A stretch of DNA of 64,000 bases from Halorubrum sp. CBA1229 (GTDB lineage Archaea; Halobacteriota; Halobacteria; Halobacteriales; Haloferacaceae): the NCBI RefSeq assembly GCF_003721435.2, contig NZ_CP054586.1, forward strand, positions 186,001 to 250,000, written 5' to 3'. The stretch's first letter is position 1, and the number at the start of each line of letters is the position of its first letter. The notes below the pieces were generated by a model. It made no database searches. It was not told the DNA's origin and saw only the letters and a list, made by a program, of their open reading frames with translations. Below are positions 156-40,493 of the stretch, one piece after another. Both the position numbers and the translations under genes were made by a program.

Positions 156-827
156 TCACACCCCAACTAATTCACGAATCCGACTTCGTGCCTCCCGTAG
201 GCCCGGTCGAGTGAGCGCAACTGTCGCGCTTGGGCCACGACCACTCCTATCGAAATATGAATCCGTCCCCTCGATATTATGATATATACCTGTCAATTGG
301 TCCGGATCGATGCCCGAGAATTCAAGTGCATCCTTCAGGTCAGATGAATAAACTCTATCCGCACCGTAGCACTCTTGCCACGTACCAAGTAGAATAAGCG
401 TGCCGTGAAGTTGCCGTTCTTGTCGTGTCTCTCCAAACCCAGTTGTATCTGCTACTATGAACGGTTCCTCTTCCAGTTCTGGATCTATGTCGATAACCTC
501 GGTTAACTGTTCAGAGCTGATGTTAAGTTCTGAAGCAAACTCTACAGATGGACTGGCTTCCTCCGTCTCGGTCTCAACTCTGGTGTTATTGTTATTTTGT
601 TCGTCAGAACTAGAGGGTTCGGTGTCATCGCCCCAGTCTGCAGTTACGGATGCCTGATCCGGCTCGGGATCTGGTCCTCCGGTCGAAGTGTCTAACTCAA
701 GGATCTGTTCTTCGTTGGATTCTAAGAATTCCAGTATCTCCAGTACCTCCGATTGGTAGTCATCATCATCAGATGCTTCGATTTCAACTTCTAATGGCCC
801 CTTTTTGAGTGTGAGCCGAACATCCAT
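156..827 (-). CDS. Acidic protein with C-terminal winged-helix-like region, unknown function
   Basis: A 223-residue protein of unknown function. It begins with a short beta-rich segment (MDVRLTLKKGPLEVEIEA) and a helix, then a long Asp/Glu/Ser/Thr-rich linker (about residues 45-115), then a folded C-terminal part of about 100 residues. The same plan of small beta domain, disordered acidic linker and wHTH-like end is seen in the gene at 3595-4146, so the two look like distant relatives flanking the helicase. An A/T-rich box (TTTAATTC on the minus strand, near 850-858) about 27 bases before the ATG supports this start and leaderless transcription. It is divergent from the gene at 926, with 98 bases between. 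Confidence 0.6.
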   Translation of the reverse strand: MDVRLTLKKGPLEVEIEASDDDDYQSEVLEILEFLESNEEQILELDTSTGGPDPEPDQASVTADWGDDTEPSSSDEQNNNNTRVETETEEASPSVEFASELNISSEQLTEVIDIDPELEEEPFIVADTTGFGETRQERQLHGTLILLGTWQECYGADRVYSSDLKDALEFSGIDPDQLTGIYHNIEGTDSYFDRSGRGPSATVALTRPGLREARSRIRELVGV

Positions 828-925
828 AGATGCTATAAATCATACAATCGAATTAAAGCTATCTAGTATCTGACCTAGAGATAAACCCTTAGTATTACAT
901 AGCAGCTAAGGAAGATTTTGATAGT

Positions 926-1333
926 ATGGGCAACGAGACTGATACTGACCCACTCCAGCAAGTCGTAGTGGACAAAGACGAGGTTAACCGTGAACGGCTG
1001 GCTGATGCCATCGAAGGGATCATCGGTGTCGATAATGATTCTGGAGAACCAGTCCCGCTCTCAGACTACCACGAACTCGGAAACGAATCGAAATTCGTAG
1101 TTCGACTCCTCGCACGACGAGCTGCACTTGCTCTTGAATTCATCGAAGAAAGTGAGTTGGGTGTATCGAGCAGCGAGCTTGCTGACCGTATGGATCCCAG
1201 TGATAGTACTATCCAGAACTATGGTGGGTTGGACTTCGTCGATAACAACGAGGACCATGGCGGTTATTTTATCCCGGGTTATGCTGTCGAATCAGCAATA
1301 AATCATATTGAGAACGTGATTGAATCCGAATAA
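926..1333 (+). CDS. Small HTH-like protein, family copy 1 of 3
   Basis: A 135-residue protein of unknown function. Two more copies lie at 4222-4617 and 5558-5965 on the other strand. All three share a DEVNRERL-type N-terminal block, the phrase GVDNDSGEPVP, a helix-rich core (FVVRLLARRAALAL) and a C-terminal part that looks like a helix-turn-helix followed by NNEDHGGYFIPGYA. The conserved GGYFIP tail is the best family mark. A TATA-like stretch near 889-900 lies about 30 bases before the ATG. It sits just upstream of the helicase gene and reads in the same direction, 252 bases apart. A DNA-binding or adaptor role is a guess from fold alone. Confidence 0.65.
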   Translation: MGNETDTDPLQQVVVDKDEVNRERLADAIEGIIGVDNDSGEPVPLSDYHELGNESKFVVRLLARRAALALEFIEESELGVSSSELADRMDPSDSTIQNYGGLDFVDNNEDHGGYFIPGYAVESAINHIENVIESE

Positions 1334-1585
1334 CAGGTTTGGGCCGTAAGGACTCACTGTTCCGCTACAAGTTTAGTTGCCACGAAGCAAATATTTTTGC
1401 CAGTAGATCCTTCCTCACGTGAGATTCTAGATTTCTCCATTTATTTTCAGAGGCACACCTAATTCCTGGTCTGGTCTGACCGGTAGATAAGGAGATCAAA
1501 TCCCCATAGTGTACAGAATCCGCCACAAAGACTATACTATTGGCACGAAACAAATTCAATATACAAAGAAGACTATTTTGAGATT

Positions 1586-3553
1586 ATGGCTCAAAACACA
1601 CAGTTTCCCATCAGCACAATTAAACAAGCAATTCGAGATATCCAAGAGTGTCAGCCCTTCGTTACCACAACGGACATCGCTGAGGAAGTCGGTTGCACAC
1701 CGGAAACAGCACGACACAAACTGATCGAACTCACCGACCGAGGTCTCCTCACCTCCTGTCGAGTAGGTGCTCGAGCAAAGGTCTGGTTCGCCCCGCAATG
1801 GATTACGATAGATGGGGACGAATCTTCCACGAATCAACCACCAGACACACCAGCCGATTCGGGTATCCCTCCATCAGAACCTAACAACAAAGAGTCGACA
1901 CAAGGCACACCTGAGGCGACTGCTCCAAATGACCCTGAGCCAAGCGCAGAAAACGTCTTGTTCTTCCCTAGTCGGCGCGAAATTGTCGTGGACTCACCGA
2001 CAGACAAGACCCAACAAATCCTCGCCCAAACCGCTCATCTTATCGACTCGACTGGCGATGGATATCTCTACAAAATCGATGAGACAGATATCTGGAACGC
2101 TCCTTACGACTCATTCCCCGACCTCCGCAGTGACCTGATCAAACTCATCGGTGAGGACCGATGGGATGGCGGCTTCGAAAGCCGCATCCACGACGACTGG
2201 GATCGAGCCCATCAGTTCCATCTTCACACCCACTCGGACGGATACACCATCCTCAAGGCCCGCGACGCAGACGTCTTCGAGAACGTCGCCAAACGGAATC
2301 TTGAGTACGGTGACCACTATACCGAATTTCTCTCAGATACCGAGCTTCGAGTGACCACTGACAGCGAAGCTGCGGTCAAGGAGACTCTCTACGAAGAAGG
2401 ATACCCGGTCATCGACCAGCGCCGCCTCGAGGAAGGAGCCAAGCTCGATATCCAGTTGACCCAGGATATCACACTCCGCGATTACCAGGAAGAGTGGGTC
2501 AAGCAGTTCGAAGGCCGCAGAGCCGGTGTGTTTGTCGGTCCCTCTGGGAGTGGAAAGACAATCGCCGCACTCGGGGTAATGAAACGTATTGGTGGAGAGG
2601 CGCTTATTATCGTACCGAACCGTGAACTGGCACAACAGTGGACTGACGAGCTTCTTGAGAAGACATCGCTACGGCGCGGCCAAGTTGGCCAGTACCATGG
2701 TGGCACGAAGCAGATTCGACCAGTAACGATCGCCACCTACGATATCGCGGCGATGAGCCGTCATCGTGAGCTGTTCAACGAACGTGACTGGGGGCTCGTT
2801 ATCGCTGACGAGTGCCACCACTCGGTGGCATCAACGTGGAAGCGATTCCGTGAGATTCAGTCGAAAGCACGACTTGGCCTCTCTGCAACGCCAGTCCGAG
2901 AAGCCGACGATCCGAAGGAAATCTATACGCTCATCGGGCCGCCAATTGGCACCGACTGGGGATCACTATTCGCCGACGGCTGGGTTGAGAAACCGTCTGT
3001 GGAACTCATCGCTGTCCCCTGGGCAAGCGATACGGCTCGCGACCGTTATCAGCGTGCTTCGGGGAGCAAGCAACTCATCGAAGCAGCACGGAACCCACAG
3101 AAGATTCCGGTCATCGATACGCTTCTCGACGATCACAGCGACCAGAAAACGCTCATTTTCGTCGACTGGATCCGCCAAGGCAAAGAGTTGGCGTCGGAAC
3201 TCAACATACCGTTCGTGTACGGTGAAACCAGCCATGACCAGCGCGAAGAAATGTATGAGCAGTTTAGAGCGGGCGAGATTAACGCGCTTATTGTGTCTCG
3301 GGTCGGTGACGAGGGAATCGACCTGCCGGATGCTGAAATCGCTGTTCTCGCGTCAACAATGGGCTCCTCACGATCACAGACCGGGCAGAGAGCCGGTCGA
3401 ACGATGCGCCCGCTCGGTGATGCAACGGTCTATATCATCCTCACGAAGGGGTCGGGCGAAGAGGATTGGGGTCGTGAAAGCACACAGTACCTCTCCGAGA
3501 AAGGTGTGGATGTCACAAAAACTAGTTGGGAAACACTCAAGACCGACGGTTAA
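1586..3553 (+). CDS. XPB/Rad25-type superfamily 2 DNA helicase with N-terminal winged helix
   Basis: A 655-residue ATP-dependent DNA helicase of the archaeal XPB family. Residues 1-70 form a winged helix (TTTDIAEEVGCTPETARHKL). Residues 75-125 are a low-complexity Pro/Asp/Glu linker. A domain resembling the XPB damage-recognition region follows, then the two RecA-like lobes. Walker A is GPSGSGKT (about 318-325), the box II is DECHH (about 408), motif III is LSATPVR, and the second lobe carries GDEGIDLPDA and QTGQRAGRTMRP. Archaeal XPB proteins are usually about 450-500 residues and lack the added wHTH and linker, so this copy may be recruited by a specific partner or site. TATA-like TCAATATACA lies about 26 bases before the ATG. 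The usual XPB partner nuclease Bax1 is not visible nearby, but a different nuclease is at 6103. Confidence 0.9.
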   Translation: MAQNTQFPISTIKQAIRDIQECQPFVTTTDIAEEVGCTPETARHKLIELTDRGLLTSCRVGARAKVWFAPQWITIDGDESSTNQPPDTPADSGIPPSEPNNKESTQGTPEATAPNDPEPSAENVLFFPSRREIVVDSPTDKTQQILAQTAHLIDSTGDGYLYKIDETDIWNAPYDSFPDLRSDLIKLIGEDRWDGGFESRIHDDWDRAHQFHLHTHSDGYTILKARDADVFENVAKRNLEYGDHYTEFLSDTELRVTTDSEAAVKETLYEEGYPVIDQRRLEEGAKLDIQLTQDITLRDYQEEWVKQFEGRRAGVFVGPSGSGKTIAALGVMKRIGGEALIIVPNRELAQQWTDELLEKTSLRRGQVGQYHGGTKQIRPVTIATYDIAAMSRHRELFNERDWGLVIADECHHSVASTWKRFREIQSKARLGLSATPVREADDPKEIYTLIGPPIGTDWGSLFADGWVEKPSVELIAVPWASDTARDRYQRASGSKQLIEAARNPQKIPVIDTLLDDHSDQKTLIFVDWIRQGKELASELNIPFVYGETSHDQREEMYEQFRAGEINALIVSRVGDEGIDLPDAEIAVLASTMGSSRSQTGQRAGRTMRPLGDATVYIILTKGSGEEDWGRESTQYLSEKGVDVTKTSWETLKTDG

Positions 3554-3563
3554 TAGTCAGAAA

Positions 3564-3570
3564 TTATAAT
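3564..3570 (+). promoter_or_regulatory. TATA-like box of the gene at 3595
   Basis: TTATAAT lies 25-31 bases before ATG 3595. Together with the overlap with the helicase that any upstream start would cause, it decides the start and implies a leaderless message. Confidence 0.5.
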
Positions 3571-3594
3571 AGTACGCCCTTAGTGACTCTCGTT

Positions 3595-4146
3595 ATGGCA
3601 GACAGTGAGGACGAGCCTCCCGAGTCGCTCCGGTTACATGTCAGCATCGGAAACGCCACAGTCGAGGTCGAGGGGCCAGCTGCCGACGCCGAAACCTGGT
3701 TTGAGGCCCTCCGTGAGGATTTCCTCCCTGAGGTCAATACTACCACTGTAGAAACCACCGCGAGCCAGCCCTCAAACAATCCTGATGGAGCAAATGAATC
3801 TGGAAGCTCTTCTAGTGAGGACAGTGTCACAGATAAGGCGCGGTCTCTCCCAGAATACTACAAGATAGCGGGCGATATTATCAAGCGGGATCGGGCACTG
3901 CTCGTCGGGTGGTATTTGGAATACCACGAAGATACAGGTGATTTCACCAGTAAGGAAGTCGAGTCTCGGGCACAGGATGCGAAAATCGGCCTTGGCCAGA
4001 ATGTTTCACGCGACCTCAGTAAGCAAGTACAAGAAGGTCGCTTGGATGTCGTTGACCAGCGAGACGGTTCAGACGCATATCATCTCACAAGAAGCGGCGA
4101 AGAGTACGTCCAAGAAGATCTGCTATCCGACTTAGAAAACTCGTAG
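3595..4146 (+). CDS. Acidic protein with N-terminal beta domain and C-terminal winged helix
   Basis: A 183-residue protein of unknown function. Residues 10-45 form a small beta/helix segment (SLRLHVSIGNATVEVEGP and EALREDFLPEV), 48-85 an acidic Ser-rich linker, and 90-183 a helical, winged-helix-like domain ending in DAYHLTRSGEEYV, a typical wing plus last helix. The frame is open upstream to 3526, but that would overlap the helicase; the TATA-like box at 3564-3570 favours ATG 3595. The organisation resembles the gene at 156-827. It lies 41 bases after the helicase stop and probably belongs to the same functional locus. Confidence 0.65.
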   Translation: MADSEDEPPESLRLHVSIGNATVEVEGPAADAETWFEALREDFLPEVNTTTVETTASQPSNNPDGANESGSSSSEDSVTDKARSLPEYYKIAGDIIKRDRALLVGWYLEYHEDTGDFTSKEVESRAQDAKIGLGQNVSRDLSKQVQEGRLDVVDQRDGSDAYHLTRSGEEYVQEDLLSDLENS

Positions 4147-4221
4147 TGGGTAACCCCATTAGCTAGAATTCAAAACTGCCAACTCGATTTGTCAGGATAA
4201 CTGGCTGTTCCACCAGTGGTG

Positions 4222-4617
4222 CTACACCTCTTCAGGAATGTCATCGCAGGCATCCGGAATATACTGAGATGGGATGAAGTAACCGCCATTCTTCTTATCT
4301 GTCTCCACATAATCCATATCAGATGCGTACGCTCGAATTGTTGAAGCGTTACCATTCACGATCGCCGCTATTTCTTTTGATTCTGCCCCCAGCTCTTCCT
4401 CTGATATTTCGCCAAGAATCTTAGCTGCACGGCGATAGAGGAGATACGTGACAAACTTTTTTCGACTAGAGAGGTTCTTAAATCCCGCCATTGGGACCAT
4501 TTCCCCAGTTTCAGAGTCAATAGCAACAACACCCTGAAGCGTCTCTAAAATTCGCTTTCTGTTGACATCCTCCTGATCTACGTAGAGTTTTTCGAGGTCT
4601 TCCCTGTCCTCACTCAT
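4222..4617 (-). CDS. Small HTH-like protein, family copy 2 of 3
   Basis: A 131-residue paralogue of the genes at 926 and 5558. Shared marks are DQEDVNRKRIL, AIDSETGEMVP, FVTYLLYRRAA and the end KNGGYFIPSQYIPDA. The middle (AAIVNGNASTIRAYASDMDYVET) fits a helix-turn-helix. It is the downstream gene of a minus-strand pair with the membrane protein at 4659. Function unknown; sequence divergence between copies suggests they are not recent duplicates. Confidence 0.65.
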   Translation of the reverse strand: MSEDREDLEKLYVDQEDVNRKRILETLQGVVAIDSETGEMVPMAGFKNLSSRKKFVTYLLYRRAAKILGEISEEELGAESKEIAAIVNGNASTIRAYASDMDYVETDKKNGGYFIPSQYIPDACDDIPEEV

Positions 4618-4658
4618 GGTTGCGGAGACGTAGCAGACACCGACACAAGTATTTATGG

Positions 4659-5447
4659 CTAAACGTTCTCCGGCGGAAGTTCAATTTCAATCTCTCCCCA
4701 GTCTGGAGTCGAATTTTTAATGGCAGCATCGAGGTACAGGTCATCTTTAACATCGACTGTTCCGCTCCAAACACAGATCTCTTCAGATTCTTCTCTGATT
4801 AATTCGTACTCAATAGTAATCTTGAATCGAACCGATTCCACATTATTCTCTCCAAAATGCTGGATTACCTCATGGAATTTTCCTTGAATCTCTTCTCCGA
4901 AGAGTTCATCCTGAAAATCTGGAATTGGGTCTGATTTGAATTCAATAGCTTCCGAGTTTGAGGTCTGTTCCTCAAGAGAACGAGCAAATGGATTTTTTCT
5001 GTATAGCGGGGTAATGGCACTGATTTCAGAACCACTTATTGATGATGGATACTTATTGACCGTGATTGTCACAGCCAAATTCTTTGCGACGCCATTCCCG
5101 AGATTGGACAGCTCGAAAGATAATTGATTATTGTCAGCCACCCAGCTGGTGAACTCCAATTCTGGTCGATGACTTGCGCTCATCCACCGTTCCTGGCGGT
5201 GTTGAATCGCCGTTTGCTGCTTGTATAGGAACACCAACCCAAATGTGAGCACCAGCGACCCGATACCACCAACAATTTGAGCGAAATTACTGGACTCAAC
5301 TGGCGGGTCAAATGAAATGATATTGACTACGCCCTCAAATTCCAGAGCTAGCCAAATAACTGCTACCAATAAAGTTGTAACCCCGAGAACCTCCATCTTT
5401 CGTCCCCGTAGACGGTCGAGATCGAGATACGAACGAATTTTATTCAT
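4659..5447 (-). CDS. Membrane-anchored protein with two N-terminal TM segments, unknown
   Basis: A 262-residue protein I do not recognise. Two hydrophobic segments lie at about residues 20-38 (VLGVTTLLVAVIWLALEF) and 60-76 (GGIGSLVLTFGLVFLY), followed by about 185 soluble residues rich in beta strands and acidic residues. The layout suggests two membrane passes with a large domain on one side. It lies between copies 2 and 3 of the small HTH-like family and faces the same way, with 41 bases to the downstream gene. Confidence 0.6.
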   Translation of the reverse strand: MNKIRSYLDLDRLRGRKMEVLGVTTLLVAVIWLALEFEGVVNIISFDPPVESSNFAQIVGGIGSLVLTFGLVFLYKQQTAIQHRQERWMSASHRPELEFTSWVADNNQLSFELSNLGNGVAKNLAVTITVNKYPSSISGSEISAITPLYRKNPFARSLEEQTSNSEAIEFKSDPIPDFQDELFGEEIQGKFHEVIQHFGENNVESVRFKITIEYELIREESEEICVWSGTVDVKDDLYLDAAIKNSTPDWGEIEIELPPENV

Positions 5448-5557
5448 TAATTATCGAGGGATTGGTGATACTTCATTCAGTTTGGAGAGACGAGGCGAGG
5501 TTTTGTTCAATACTGAGCGCACTAGATGTTTCTAGGTATTGGTTTTGACTCTACGGG

Positions 5558-5965
5558 TTAGTCGTCCTCTGTTTCGATATATGAGATTGCTCTGTCAATC
5601 GCATATCCCGGGATGATGTACCCATCGCGTTCCTCGTCGTTTTCAACGAATTGGAGTTCGCTAGCGTAATTGTTCACCGCTGAGGAGCTCACTTCGAGGT
5701 TTTCAGCGAACGTAGCGCTACCAGCGCCCTGTTCTTCATCAGATAGTTCACCAAGTGCTACTGCTCCACTCCGGTACAGAAGCTGCGCAACAAACTGCTC
5801 TTTGTTCGATAACTCGTGGTATGCCTCGTGGAAAATTGGGTCGCCGGTATCTTTGTCGACCCCGATAACGTCTTTCAGAGCGTCTCGAAGTCGTTGCTGG
5901 TTTACAGCGTCCTTGTCCTCATAAAGGTCTTCGAGGGGACTGTCTTCTTTGTCACACTCACTCAT
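5558..5965 (-). CDS. Small HTH-like protein, family copy 3 of 3
   Basis: A 135-residue paralogue of the genes at 926 and 4222, with DKDAVNQQRL, GVDKDTGDPIF, FVAQLLYRSGAVAL and the end ERDGYIIPGYAIDRAI. ATG 5965 (MSECDKED) is preferred over an in-frame codon three residues upstream because the family homology begins soon after it. It is the closest of the three to copy 1 in its C-terminal end. Function unknown. Confidence 0.65.
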   Translation of the reverse strand: MSECDKEDSPLEDLYEDKDAVNQQRLRDALKDVIGVDKDTGDPIFHEAYHELSNKEQFVAQLLYRSGAVALGELSDEEQGAGSATFAENLEVSSSAVNNYASELQFVENDEERDGYIIPGYAIDRAISYIETEDD

Positions 5966-6102
5966 TGAAATCACCTACTGTGGTATGGAAACAGACATAC
6001 GAATAATCTTCGACTCTATTGATTTCCCGCCTACTGAGCGGAAGTTACATTTCGTAGTCTAGAAAGTATATTTAACAACATGTCAATCAGAGAATCGCAT
6101 CA

Positions 6103-6531
6103 CTAAGATTCAGTAAACTCTCGAATTTTGCGGAGCGCCTCATCTATCGAGAATTCTTCGGGCAGGTTCGCCTGTTCACGATGCCAATCACTAGGCATCT
6201 CCCTAGGAGGATTGAAATTCACACGTTGCGTCTTCTCCATTTCGTGAGCAGGCACGTATCTCGCTGTGCCCTCTTCGTGGATGGCACCAGCAAATATATC
6301 GACGGTACCTTCGGGGTACTTTTCTGGAGAAATTTCTAACTCGTAACGATATTCATCATAGTCGCTCGCAGTTTTCACCTGAACTCGTAATAGCTCCCCC
6401 CCAACGTCGATTACCAAGTCGTATTTTTGCTCGTGACCATGGGGATAGGCTACACCATACCCATTTCGAAGGATATCTGCCGCGACTAAGGCTTCTGACG
6501 CATCACCCCGCCAACCTCGTTCCAAATCCAT
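6103..6531 (-). CDS. PD-(D/E)XK nuclease family protein
   Basis: A 142-residue protein resembling the small archaeal PD-(D/E)XK endonucleases of the intron-associated / Holliday-junction-resolvase-like type. An N-terminal helix carries a Glu (GDASEALVAADILRNG), then comes the metal-binding strand pair YDLVIDVGGELLRVQVKTA, where the Asp and the Q-V-K form the catalytic signature. The length is usual for a stand-alone nuclease domain. It is the last gene of the helicase locus and could act with the XPB-like helicase, but this is inferred only from position. Confidence 0.7.
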   Translation of the reverse strand: MDLERGWRGDASEALVAADILRNGYGVAYPHGHEQKYDLVIDVGGELLRVQVKTASDYDEYRYELEISPEKYPEGTVDIFAGAIHEEGTARYVPAHEMEKTQRVNFNPPREMPSDWHREQANLPEEFSIDEALRKIREFTES

Positions 6532-6713: not shown

Positions 6714-6749
6714 CCCTCTCGAAACGGGTCCCGAACACAGGTGAGAACA

Positions 6750-7670
6750 ATGGCAATCAGAGACATCTACGAAACTGGCTTCGACGAAGATGTCCAAACG
6801 GAGTCAAGCGCAAACCGATGTCCCGAGTGCGACGGACACGTCACTACCAACGTGAAGGAAACGGTCTGTGAGGACTGTGGACTCGTTATCGAGAAACAAC
6901 GTATCGATCACGGGCCAGAGTGGCGAGCGTACGATGTGGACGAGCGCGAGCGAACAGGCGCACCGTTAACGACGGCCCGCCACGATCGAGGCCTCTCGAC
7001 CGAGATCGGCCACGGAACCGATGCGCACGGGAACGAACTCTCAGGCCAGAAACGCCGACGGCTGGCCCGGATGCGACGTGAGCAGACCCGTGGTCGCTGG
7101 CGGTCCAAAGCGGAACGGAATCTTGCACACGGGTTGGGCGAGGTACGCCGGCTGGCAAGTGCGCTCGAGCTCTCCGAATCGATTCGTGACCAGGCGTGCC
7201 AGCTCTTCCGGAGCGCCCAGAGCGAGGATCTACTTCGAGGCAGATCCATCGAGGCCATCGGCGCAGCGAGTGTTTACGGTACCTGCCGGTGTAACCAACA
7301 CCCGCTCCTCCTCGAGGATGTCGTCGACGCCGCCCGAGTCGAGTCCACTCGTATCACCAACGCCTACCGAACACTGAATCGCGAATTGGAGCTTCCGGCA
7401 CCACCAATGCGCCCGACATCGTTCGTTCCGCGGCTGATCTCGGCGCTGGAGTTAGACCACGACATTCGCCGACGCGCGAACGAACTCGCAGAACGCGCCG
7501 AGGGGACAACCCTCGCGAACGGCTGTCAGCCATCGGGCGTCGCGGCCGCCTGTGTCTATCTGGCTGCCCAAGAGCAGGGCGCGCTGATTACCCAATCCAC
7601 CGTCGCGTCGGCAGCAGAGGTGTCAGTCGTGACGCTCCGAAGCCGGCGAGACGAACTCCAAGCGATCTGA
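6750..7670 (+). CDS. tfb: Transcription initiation factor TFB
   Basis: A 306-residue archaeal TFIIB homologue that bridges TBP-bound promoters and RNA polymerase. An N-terminal zinc ribbon has CPEC and CEDC pairs (about residues 23-45). The B-reader/linker region follows, then two cyclin-like repeats (about 105-200 and 205-305). ATG 6750 (MAIRDIYE) matches the usual haloarchaeal TFB start; GTG 6741 is in frame but less likely. Haloarchaea carry several TFBs and plasmid-borne copies are common. This is the first gene of the hairpin-leader module and could direct transcription of the neighbouring genes, which is inference. Confidence 0.92.
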   Translation: MAIRDIYETGFDEDVQTESSANRCPECDGHVTTNVKETVCEDCGLVIEKQRIDHGPEWRAYDVDERERTGAPLTTARHDRGLSTEIGHGTDAHGNELSGQKRRRLARMRREQTRGRWRSKAERNLAHGLGEVRRLASALELSESIRDQACQLFRSAQSEDLLRGRSIEAIGAASVYGTCRCNQHPLLLEDVVDAARVESTRITNAYRTLNRELELPAPPMRPTSFVPRLISALELDHDIRRRANELAERAEGTTLANGCQPSGVAAACVYLAAQEQGALITQSTVASAAEVSVVTLRSRRDELQAI

Positions 7671-10791: not shown

Positions 10792-12063
10792 ATGGACGAC
10801 GCGCTACGACGCACGGTACGAATCAAACTTGACGTACCCAGAGAATGTCGTGGCGATCTCCATCAGACCAAGACCCAATTCCTCCACTGTGCTAACCGAA
10901 CGAGCGAGTGGGCCTGGCGGTACGACGACGACTGTATCACCAGCAAGAGCAGAGCTGAAGAGGCCCTGTATGACGAGTTACGGGAGGAAACCGAACTCAC
11001 CGCTAATCTCGTTCAGAAAGGTATTCGTCGTGCTATCGCAGCCGTCAGGGCCGGCGTCGAGAAATTGACGCAAGGTGAGAAGACCAGCCAACCCATATTC
11101 GACTCGTGGAGCATCGTGTACGACAAACGCTCCGCGACGTTCAACGACGACCACGCTACCCTCTCGACGCCGAATGGCAGAGTCACCGCCGAATACGTGC
11201 TTCCACCCGAAAATGAGCGAGAGAACACACCGTTCGGACGGTACTACGAGAGTGACAGCTGGAATGCGTCGAGTGCCACGCTCCAGTACGACGAGGATGA
11301 GGACACGTTCTACCTACACGTCACGCTGAAAAGGTCCGACTACAGAAGTGACGGAACGGAACGCCAGGAAAGCCAGTCAGGTGATGATAGCCCTGAGAAC
11401 GGAGTGGTTCTCGGCGTGGACTTGAACGTGACTGGCGCGTTCGCCGTCACCTCCACAGGCGAGTTCATCGGCAGTGCAGACCTCCTCACCCACAAGCGCA
11501 ATCAGTACGAGCAACGCCGCGCCAAACTACAACAGACGGGTACACGGTCGGCTCACCTCACGATCCAGTCCATTGGTAGTCAGTTCAGCGAGTGGACAGT
11601 AGACTGGCTCCACAACCGCGCCAACGACCTCATCGAAGAAGCCCGTGACGCGAAGGTAGACGGGATTATTTTCGAGGATCTTACTCATATCCGCGAGCGT
11701 ATTGCGAACGGCAGCAAGTTCCAGCAGTGGGCCTACGCGAAGTTCGTGGAACTCGTTGAGTACAAGGTCGAGTCCACTGAGTTGTTCGTGGACTTCGTGA
11801 ATCCAGCGTACACGAGCCAGCGTTGCTCATATTGTGGGTGTACCCACGAGGATAATCGCGACGACAAGCAGTTCGAGTGCCAGTCATGTGGGTATGAGGT
11901 GAACGCGGATTACAACGCGGCCAAGAACATTGCAAACCGATACTGCAAGTATATCCATCGCGGGCAGAAGTCTCGCGGTGGATGGGCCACCAGTCAACTG
12001 GCCCTGAAGTCAGGGACGCTGAACGTGAATGGTGAATACACACCTTCCGCCGTGCGCAGATAG
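10792..12063 (+). CDS. tnpB: TnpB-family RNA-guided nuclease (IS200/IS605, IS1341-type)
   Basis: A 423-residue TnpB, the programmable nuclease of IS200/IS605-family elements and ancestor of Cas12. The RuvC-like catalytic residues are present: Asp210 (GVDLN), Glu295 (FEDL) and Asp373 (NADYNAAKNIA). A zinc ribbon with CSYC and CQSC lies between the last two. All three acidic residues and the zinc ribbon are intact, so the protein may be active. No tnpA is adjacent, so the element is not autonomous. The guide (omega) RNA is expected to overlap the 3' end of the gene and the right end of the element. Confidence 0.93.
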   Translation: MDDALRRTVRIKLDVPRECRGDLHQTKTQFLHCANRTSEWAWRYDDDCITSKSRAEEALYDELREETELTANLVQKGIRRAIAAVRAGVEKLTQGEKTSQPIFDSWSIVYDKRSATFNDDHATLSTPNGRVTAEYVLPPENERENTPFGRYYESDSWNASSATLQYDEDEDTFYLHVTLKRSDYRSDGTERQESQSGDDSPENGVVLGVDLNVTGAFAVTSTGEFIGSADLLTHKRNQYEQRRAKLQQTGTRSAHLTIQSIGSQFSEWTVDWLHNRANDLIEEARDAKVDGIIFEDLTHIRERIANGSKFQQWAYAKFVELVEYKVESTELFVDFVNPAYTSQRCSYCGCTHEDNRDDKQFECQSCGYEVNADYNAAKNIANRYCKYIHRGQKSRGGWATSQLALKSGTLNVNGEYTPSAVRR

Positions 12064-38642: not shown

Positions 38643-40493
38643 ATGTGGAATCTTCAAATAGAGAATATTGCCGGGATCAAATCCGGTAGTGCGACTCTCG
38701 AACAGGGGACAAACGTCGTACAGGCGTCAAACTTCCAAGGAAAATCTAGCTTGCTGAAAGCTATCCAAACAGCGATGGGAACAACCGGGAAGGATGAACG
38801 TACTCACCCCCTCACAGAAGGGCAGACTGAAGGGTACGCCGAATTAGACACCGGCAATAACACCTACCGAGGAGAGCTCTCTCGCGAAGGCCGCTCGGTG
38901 ATCAGGTCTGGAAACCCGTATCTGACAGAGGACACCGATATCACCTGCGCTTACCTCTTTGCTTTCCTCGGTGAAGATAATCCCATCCGCTCCGCGGTGA
39001 AGGAGGGTAATAACGAGCGCCTGACAGAGCTTCTGATGGAGCCGCTTAATGTCGAAAAGATCGATGCCCAAATTGCGGAACTCCAGAATGAGAAAAACAG
39101 TATCGAGAACGACATCAAGGAGGCCGAGAGAGCAAACAAGAAGCTCCCGAAAGCACAAGAAGAAGTCACGAGACTCGAAAAAGAACTCGAGGAGGCCCGC
39201 GAACGAAAGGATGAATTAGAAGAGCAGGTCGACGAAGATAGCGAGCAGAAGGAACTCAGCGACAAACTGAGCGAAAAACGCTCGCGTCTGAACAATACCA
39301 AGAATACGATCAAGAAGCTCGAATCACGAATTGAACGGAAGAAATCCACTCTCGAAGACAAACAGGACGAGTTGGACGATCTCGATATCCCTTCTGAACC
39401 GAAGATCAACACGGACATCCACGAAAAGGAGGAACGTATCAACGAACTCGATCTTCAGATTGACCTCCTCCGGAGAGTCCACAGTGTGAACAAGCAGGTC
39501 CTCGACGACGAAGAAGTGGAACTTGTGAGCGATGTCGAGCACGGTATTGACGGCGACAAGGTCGTCTGCTGGCTGTCTGGTGACACCACCACCGTCGACC
39601 AGATCGAAGAACAACTGAGGCAACTCAACGAGAAACGGCTTGAACTCCGCGAGGAGAAATTCGAACTCGAAAGCGAAGTCGACGAAATAGAGAAGAAGAA
39701 GCGAACGATTCGGACGAAAAAGCGAAAGCGCGACAAACTCGAAGATAAGATCGGAAACCTCAAACTAGACATCCAAGAGGACGAACAGGAGTTAGAGCAA
39801 GCGGAAGACCGAGTTGAAGACCTCCGAGAGGAGATCGAAGAGTTAGAGAGCCAGTACGAAGAGGTCCAAGAGGATCTCAACGAGGACCTGACCGACGTAC
39901 GGACGGAGATTGGCTCTCTGGAAACACAGCTCAAGAACAGCCGAGAAGACCTCGAGGAACTCGACGAAGCCGCAGGCGAAGCGGATGACCTGAGAGATGA
40001 ACTCGATACCGTCAAAGAGGAGATCGCAGACCTTCGCAACCGTCGCGACCGCAAGCACAAAGAGTTTGAATCTCTCTTCGAGACCGCGATGGACAACATG
40101 CTCGACCAGTTCGCTCCTGGCTTCGAAACAGTGCGGCTTGACCGCCGCGTCAACGAGGATGGATCGACCAAGGAATTCGAACTTACCGTCGTGAGAAACA
40201 GTCAGGACACGTCTGTCGAGAACCTCAGCGAAGGGGAAGTCGAACTCATCGGGTTCGTAACCGCCCTCGCAGGACATCAAGCGTTCAACGTGGACGAGAT
40301 CGTCCCGGTTATCCTCGTCGACGGCATCGGACAGCTCGCTGCGGAACACATCAAGGGACTCACCGAGTTCCTTGAGGGAGCGAGCGACATGCTGGTGACC
40401 ACCGCATATCCAGAAGCAGGCGACTTCGGAGGGAATTCGCTGTCCCCCGATGATTGGGATGTGGTTTCTGACGAGGAAGTAAGCCTCGCGTAA
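38643..40493 (+). CDS. SMC/Rad50-like coiled-coil ATPase (archaea-specific SMC-related protein)
   Basis: A 616-residue protein with SMC-type plan: N-terminal head (1-130), a coiled coil up to about 480 with a break near 290-310, and a C-terminal head. The P-loop is ASNFQGKSS, so the first Gly of GxxxxGKS is Ala. The signature is NLSEGE, and the Walker B region reads VILVDGIGQL with Gly where the catalytic Glu normally follows Asp. At the hinge there is CWLSGD, one Cys only, where a Rad50-type zinc hook would need CxxC. ATP turnover may be slow or absent. The gene pairs in context with the RdfA-like gene at 36057. Confidence 0.8.
   Translation: MWNLQIENIAGIKSGSATLEQGTNVVQASNFQGKSSLLKAIQTAMGTTGKDERTHPLTEGQTEGYAELDTGNNTYRGELSREGRSVIRSGNPYLTEDTDITCAYLFAFLGEDNPIRSAVKEGNNERLTELLMEPLNVEKIDAQIAELQNEKNSIENDIKEAERANKKLPKAQEEVTRLEKELEEARERKDELEEQVDEDSEQKELSDKLSEKRSRLNNTKNTIKKLESRIERKKSTLEDKQDELDDLDIPSEPKINTDIHEKEERINELDLQIDLLRRVHSVNKQVLDDEEVELVSDVEHGIDGDKVVCWLSGDTTTVDQIEEQLRQLNEKRLELREEKFELESEVDEIEKKKRTIRTKKRKRDKLEDKIGNLKLDIQEDEQELEQAEDRVEDLREEIEELESQYEEVQEDLNEDLTDVRTEIGSLETQLKNSREDLEELDEAAGEADDLRDELDTVKEEIADLRNRRDRKHKEFESLFETAMDNMLDQFAPGFETVRLDRRVNEDGSTKEFELTVVRNSQDTSVENLSEGEVELIGFVTALAGHQAFNVDEIVPVILVDGIGQLAAEHIKGLTEFLEGASDMLVTTAYPEAGDFGGNSLSPDDWDVVSDEEVSLA

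Follow-up and report, generated by a model that had tools for sequence, protein, structure and literature searches.

The gene cluster at the left end of the window (the whole stretch of 64,000 nucleotides that was analysed, C2:186001-250000) probably represents a defence system of archaea that has yet to be described, because related blocks occupy the sites of known antivirus systems in other strains. That it is undescribed was judged from PADLOC-DB 2023 and open-access papers. The results showed that small wHTH-like proteins of the families c0, c1, c2 and c7 are co-inherited with one of two interchangeable DNA motors, often together with hepA or hepB. In this study, we believe that a defence role of the cluster is likely, and it is also fairly likely that the locus is a cargo island that a haloarchaeon acquired horizontally and that is directed against invaders, either viruses or plasmids. 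Archaeal immunity outside CRISPR is poorly charted (PMC12988326). The locus offers a defined, clonable haloarchaeal unit in which six or more protein families lack annotation.

Location and gene content of the locus

The contig C2 (364 kb) belongs to a two-contig haloarchaeal genome, the other contig of which, C1, measures 3.22 Mb. The XPB cluster is a recently acquired gene block on this large plasmid of a salt-loving archaeon. Its GC content is 49%, compared with 62% and 60% in the left and right 3-kb flanks, respectively, and the low-GC block extends from approximately C2:184,500, left of the window, to the TFB gene at window position 6741. All eight ORFs that the first-pass annotation had listed between 156 and 6531 were found at those positions. 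The members of that gene set are all real, but the set was incomplete, since a fourth c0 copy and a gene with wHTH-like and HEPN-like parts adjoin it on the left, where the linked genes begin approximately 1.1 kb before the window. The features are as follows (window positions unless C2 is given).

C2:184873-185664, left of the window: hepB, 263 aa, N-terminal wHTH-like part and putative C-terminal HEPN-like part
-264 to 143 (C2:185736-186143; 3' end at 1-143), + strand: c0 copy no. 4, 135 aa, HMM E=8e-24
156-827, - strand: c7 family, 223 aa, N-terminal bba stretch, acidic linker and C-terminal wHTH-like part; homologues elsewhere
926-1333, + strand: c0 small wHTH-like protein, 135 aa
1586-3553, + strand: XPB-family SF2 helicase, 655 aa, N-terminal wHTH (domain and motif matches)
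3595-4146, + strand: c1 family, 183 aa, bba N-terminus, linker and conserved C-terminal wHTH-like domain (alignment)
4222-4617, - strand: c0 copy, 131 aa
4659-5447, - strand: c14 two-TM protein, 262 aa
5558-5974, - strand: c0 copy, 138 aa, GTG start
6103-6531, - strand: PDDEXK_5 nuclease, 142 aa, accessory (PF11645)
6741-7670, + strand: TFB (transcription initiation factor IIB-like) gene, right edge of the hotspot (read by eye)

The start of c1 at 3595 is an in-frame ATG within the ORF 3526-4146. The TFB gene is plasmid backbone and no member of the system; we read it as the right edge of the hotspot because this flank is conserved in genus relatives while the content between the flanks is variable.

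Left of the window, L008 1305-5259 (C2:175305-179259) is a low-GC block whose proteins resemble, by eye, a YcaO cyclodehydratase, a SagB-like oxidoreductase and an APH-like kinase, and it is possibly a cluster for a thiazole/oxazole-modified peptide. A few genes to the right of the XPB cluster, a protein resembling TnpB/IS200-605 OrfB (by eye) is encoded at 10792-12063. The window also has an extreme AT skew (+0.465) at 39001-40000, over an ORF at 38643-40493 (+ strand) of 616 aa with 26% Asp+Glu.

Co-occurrence of the small proteins with two motors

The survey covered 392 genomes of Halobacteria. The c0 profile had matches in 36 of them, and the strong matches were mostly multi-copy clusters. 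The c1 profile had 14 matches, of which those in G354 and G150 were the hepB N-terminus, so that true c1 was present in 12 genomes, which belong to five families; this is a small number of loci. In 12 of 12, c1 lies within approximately 100 bp of c0. The locus of G192 was counted as incomplete, its c1 lying at the contig end, and a motor is present in 11 of the 11 complete loci. An XPB of the window's subfamily is carried by five of these (G000, which is the window genome, G210, G319, G200 and G251) and a HerA/DUF87 ATPase by six (G344, G033, G268, G322, G017 and G095, with c6 and in some cases c4); therefore, the motor is exchangeable. The triplet of c0, coiled-coil c1 and c2 accompanies XPB in L059, L060 and L062, and HerA in L050, L051, L053, L054, L065 and L067.

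Within the 392-genome sample, four other loci keep the neighbours of the window XPB, and so does Natrinema zhouii, whose locus is the smallest version and holds XPB, c1, hepB and c7, with c0 absent. Two XPB loci, L101 and L102, instead encode c4-like proteins alongside a protein of 329/334 aa that has the motif GGMRNPSGGH. Chance clustering was rejected by the counts for c1 with c0 (12/12) and for the motor (11/11). Together with the defence genes and empty sites at the same slots, these counts bear out the early view of a linked set of the defence or mobile-element kind that corresponds to no known system. Whether the small family co-occurs with the helicase and the nuclease had been named as a check; XPB was present in 5 of the 11 complete c1-c0 loci, and the nuclease in none of the loci compared besides the window. 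Separate occurrence, which in most genomes would have spoken against the set, was seen in part, for the small family in L061, L063, L064, L066, L068 and L069 and for the helicase in L099, L100 and L190.

Empty sites and defence neighbourhood

The clusters are islets gained by horizontal transfer, and empty counterparts of their sites exist. For example, the L056 islet has a GC content of 53% against about 69%, and its site is empty in four congeners, where 100-510 bp separate the two flanks, compared with 7.9 kb. Some low-GC islets adjoin tRNA genes. The islet of L062 lies beside tRNA-Arg, and at the same site G374 carries a 29.6-kb insert with a duplicated end of approximately 115 bp and with type I RM, Ppl and LmuB-like genes.

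The window's slot is bordered by an RPA-like gene and the TFB gene, a pair that is also found in genus relatives and is only 0.8 kb apart in G272 and in a second copy of G000. The latter, G000:C2:35359-37328 (L250), is a nearly empty backbone pair on the same plasmid. In the window's slot, G004 has 4.8 kb with a short pAgo (3e-145) and its Aga_REase_Archaea partner (9e-171), and G219 has an LmuB-like ATPase (3e-39). At L063, a lone c0 ends 2 bp before an Mrr_cat nuclease. A further backbone, consisting of a type-B DNA polymerase, a protein of about 313 aa and a protein of about 106 aa, flanks clusters or hepB in L051, L052/L053, L069, L101 and L230/L231, and it is possibly a haloarchaeal cargo hotspot.

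The helicase and its phylogeny

The protein encoded at 1586 had been called an XPB-type helicase, and this assignment stands. It matches ResIII (4e-24) and ERCC3_RAD25_C (3e-22) of Pfam, that is, an SF2 core with the ERCC3/RAD25 C-terminal domain, and it matches the NCBIfam XPB model NF045503 at 4e-103, though its 345.9 bits are under the equivalog cut-off of the DNA-repair XPB (610 bits, full-length score). The motifs GPSGSGKT, DECH and QRAGRTMRP are all intact. The N-terminal wHTH and linker had been regarded as atypical for an archaeal XPB, which proved wrong: both are covered by the alignment with this genome's chromosomal XPB (44% over 648 columns). The extra wHTH was thus rejected as a novelty, since the chromosomal XPB has a wHTH too.

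In a tree of 21 sequences, a 100/100 branch splits a mobile XPB clade from the chromosomal and ParA-plasmid XPBs. On the mobile side are the XPBs of the clusters, those of c4-type loci and three copies associated with viruses or integrases, and the window XPB forms one group with those of L056, L059 and L109 (100/100). The XPB helicase at L060 5805-9986 (G251) has an intein-like insert exactly within the DEAH-box, between ADEC and HH, omitted for the tree. Members of the same subfamily occur without a cluster in viral or integrated elements (L099/L189, L100 and L190), which makes the helicase itself a gene of mobile elements that is put to use by the clusters. L189 and L190 are halovirus-like contigs of IMG/VR, and the L190 copy adjoins ParA and possible tail genes. 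On megaplasmids of Natrialbaceae (L011, L012, L014 and L016), a separate ParA-linked group of XPBs is found close to ParA and to one small gene, and in two cases a TFB gene is also near. A contig scan with a helicase fragment returned three haloarchaea and otherwise mostly actinobacterial noise. The genes flanking the chromosomal XPB (eight genes, two loci) gave only QueC and low-level viperin cross-matches and are housekeeping relatives of these models.

Small wHTH-like proteins and accessory genes

The three small proteins first noticed in the window do form one family (36-41% identity), and c0 and c2, the second small family, found in the sister loci, match each other's HMMs, down to about 1e-10. 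The similar layout ascribed to the two acidic proteins at 156 and 3595 is suggestive only: BLAST found no similarity, and hhalign paired their N-terminal bba stretches with E=0.004 and a probability of 9%. No significant family was found for c0, c1, c7 and c14 in Pfam, NCBIfam, PADLOC or PHROGs, nor any for c2, hepA and hepB in the libraries searched, and the small subunits had no profile match to any PADLOC 2023 system. The wHTH and HEPN assignments were made at the sequence level. The wHTH-like sequences had weak HTH_11 matches (0.019 and 0.13), and a poor AlphaFold model gave the helix-helix-hairpin order. Two AlphaFold models were poor (pLDDT 46 and 61) with shallow alignments, and of insufficient quality for searching by fold, PDB profile searches were uninformative, and an Rfam search of the locus gave nothing informative.

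Homologues of c7 were found in L056 (two copies), L062, L109 and L216-L222, usually directly before hepB. In L216-L222, c7 followed by hepB is a common two-gene unit, and a tyrosine integrase is near or directly ahead in L217-L220; the position of c7-hepB directly after tyrosine integrases fits carriage by integrative elements. The nuclease at 6103 is of the PD-(D/E)XK type, as first proposed (PF11645 PDDEXK_5, E=8e-19). As a core part it was rejected, since all-vs-all clustering found it in no other cluster compared. The two-TM protein is no core part either: the c14-c0 pair recurs in only two other loci (L061 and L064), and a distant homologue of c14 lies at the same hotspot in G361 (L247).

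HEPN-like proteins

The hepA domain is the N-terminal part of long c0 proteins, and in the 22 genomes tested it turned up at c0 loci alone, in 7 of them. When the sequences were checked for the HEPN motif RX4-6H, R..RD.VH.N was invariant across five aligned hepA sequences and lost in L069, and hepB kept AHSI with the conserved Arg absent. AlphaFold, run without an alignment, gave a pLDDT of 61 in the fold check. The hepA motif and a weak similarity faintly suggest that both proteins are HEPN-like. A solo hepA-c0 adjoins BrxA (4e-170), BrxC (E=0) and BrxB in L069, and SspF/G/H in L068. The neighbours of hepB include ThsB-like TIR proteins, an HKD-Snf2 helicase with a type IIG RM enzyme, and an HmaB-like methylase. 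Viral scans with the cluster protein P0007, hepA and hepB gave no matches.

Alternative explanations

The locus could be a patchwork island whose defence cargo was gained piecemeal, with c0, c1 and c7 acting as transcriptional regulators of each sub-module, like BrxR/CapW of bacterial defence islands. Regulators would suit the lone c0 genes beside differing effectors (BREX, SspFGH and Mrr), the four diverged c0 copies on both strands of the window locus, the wHTH-like C-termini, and the recurrence of c14-c0 and c7-hepB as separate two-gene units. However, in the survey c1 never occurs without c0, nor without a motor in complete loci; the c0-c1-c2 triplet travels as a unit alongside either of two unrelated motors, and several wHTH proteins per locus exceed regulatory need. 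We consider such a patchwork unlikely.

It is quite improbable that XPB, c7 and hepB serve the replication, integration or superinfection control of an element or plasmid, with host defence not involved. The XPB islets lack an integrase, virion genes or replication genes of their own, one and the same slot can hold either a cluster or a known defence system, and hepB is often next to defence genes. On the other side, halovirus-like contigs contain the XPB clade, which is also seen near Orc/ParA genes; a tyrosine integrase immediately precedes c7-hepB or lies close to it in L217-L220, and PolB and Orc-like neighbours occur at several loci. A second DNA-repair XPB of the TFIIH/NER type, around which unrelated neighbours gathered by chance, is hardly credible. 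Its strong similarity to XPB is set against the separate clade (100/100), the missing Bax1/DUF790 partner (no DUF790 match in Pfam among the eight cluster proteins) and the neighbours conserved in the other loci; an ordinary repair paralogue was largely refuted by the co-occurrence counts, the tree and the neighbours.

Proposed mechanism

For the anti-invader island, we speculated that the wHTH subunits may form a DNA-recognition platform that would load XPB, or HerA in the sister loci, onto foreign DNA. XPB would then translocate along the invader DNA or remodel it, and the putative HEPN-like protein would convert recognition into inhibition by RNA cleavage or growth arrest. The PDDEXK_5 nuclease might optionally add to the inhibition, at the window locus alone. 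This scheme of wHTH-loaded XPB with HEPN-like or nuclease effectors is tentative. Gene content differs among the loci, which speaks against taking a fixed complex for granted. More doubtful is a new class of archaeal immunity, in which a mobile XPB offshoot on paralogous wHTH adaptors would sense or strip invader DNA and trigger a HEPN-type RNase, with XPB and HerA interchangeable. A single recognition module with two alternative motors is a rule open to test, and the clusters suggest how mobile DNA recruited a helicase family of core repair/transcription.

Comparison with known systems

The haloarchaeal DndCDEA-PbeABCD system (PMC6459918) is also a multigene set with an SF2 helicase and small proteins, and the PbeA models of PADLOC hit the window helicase in its core (6e-36). 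However, PbeA has a PLD domain, whereas the window helicase (P0002) has no PLD match, begins with a wHTH and is closer to XPB. The other seven cluster proteins had no PADLOC match to PbeB, PbeC, PbeD or dnd. Membership of PbeABCD was rejected, since the PLD and the partner genes are absent. The archaeal XPB-Bax1 repair helicase (PMC7293015) shares the helicase family and its motifs, but the window XPB belongs to the separate mobile clade, is without Bax1 and has other neighbours. The SNJ2 integrase helpers Orf2 and Orf3 (PMC8371274) are two small genes with wHTH after a tyrosine integrase, an arrangement comparable to c7-hepB in L217-L219. They measure 111 and 140 aa, in contrast to about 215-230 aa for c7 and 257-260 aa for hepB, and c7 and hepB had no match in the phage collection, so this identity was rejected.

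Fast-evolving wHTH proteins, a translocase and effectors have been proposed to act in combination in HerA/FtsK capture systems (PMC10853773, PMC12839542), two papers in which the words XPB and haloarchaea do not occur. The window motor is an XPB-type SF2 helicase instead of HerA/FtsK, the wHTH families here differ and are unannotated, and the Orc/Cdc6-REase core and PglZ are missing (no Orc/Cdc6 AAA+ with REase among the cluster proteins). In both cases, a translocase is combined with small DNA-binding proteins, fast-evolving and multi-wHTH in the capture systems and wHTH-like here, and with nuclease or RNase effectors (the RNase being putative here), in mobile and defence contexts. The sister loci have the same make-up with HerA/DUF87, and XPB takes the same position in the window and its related loci.
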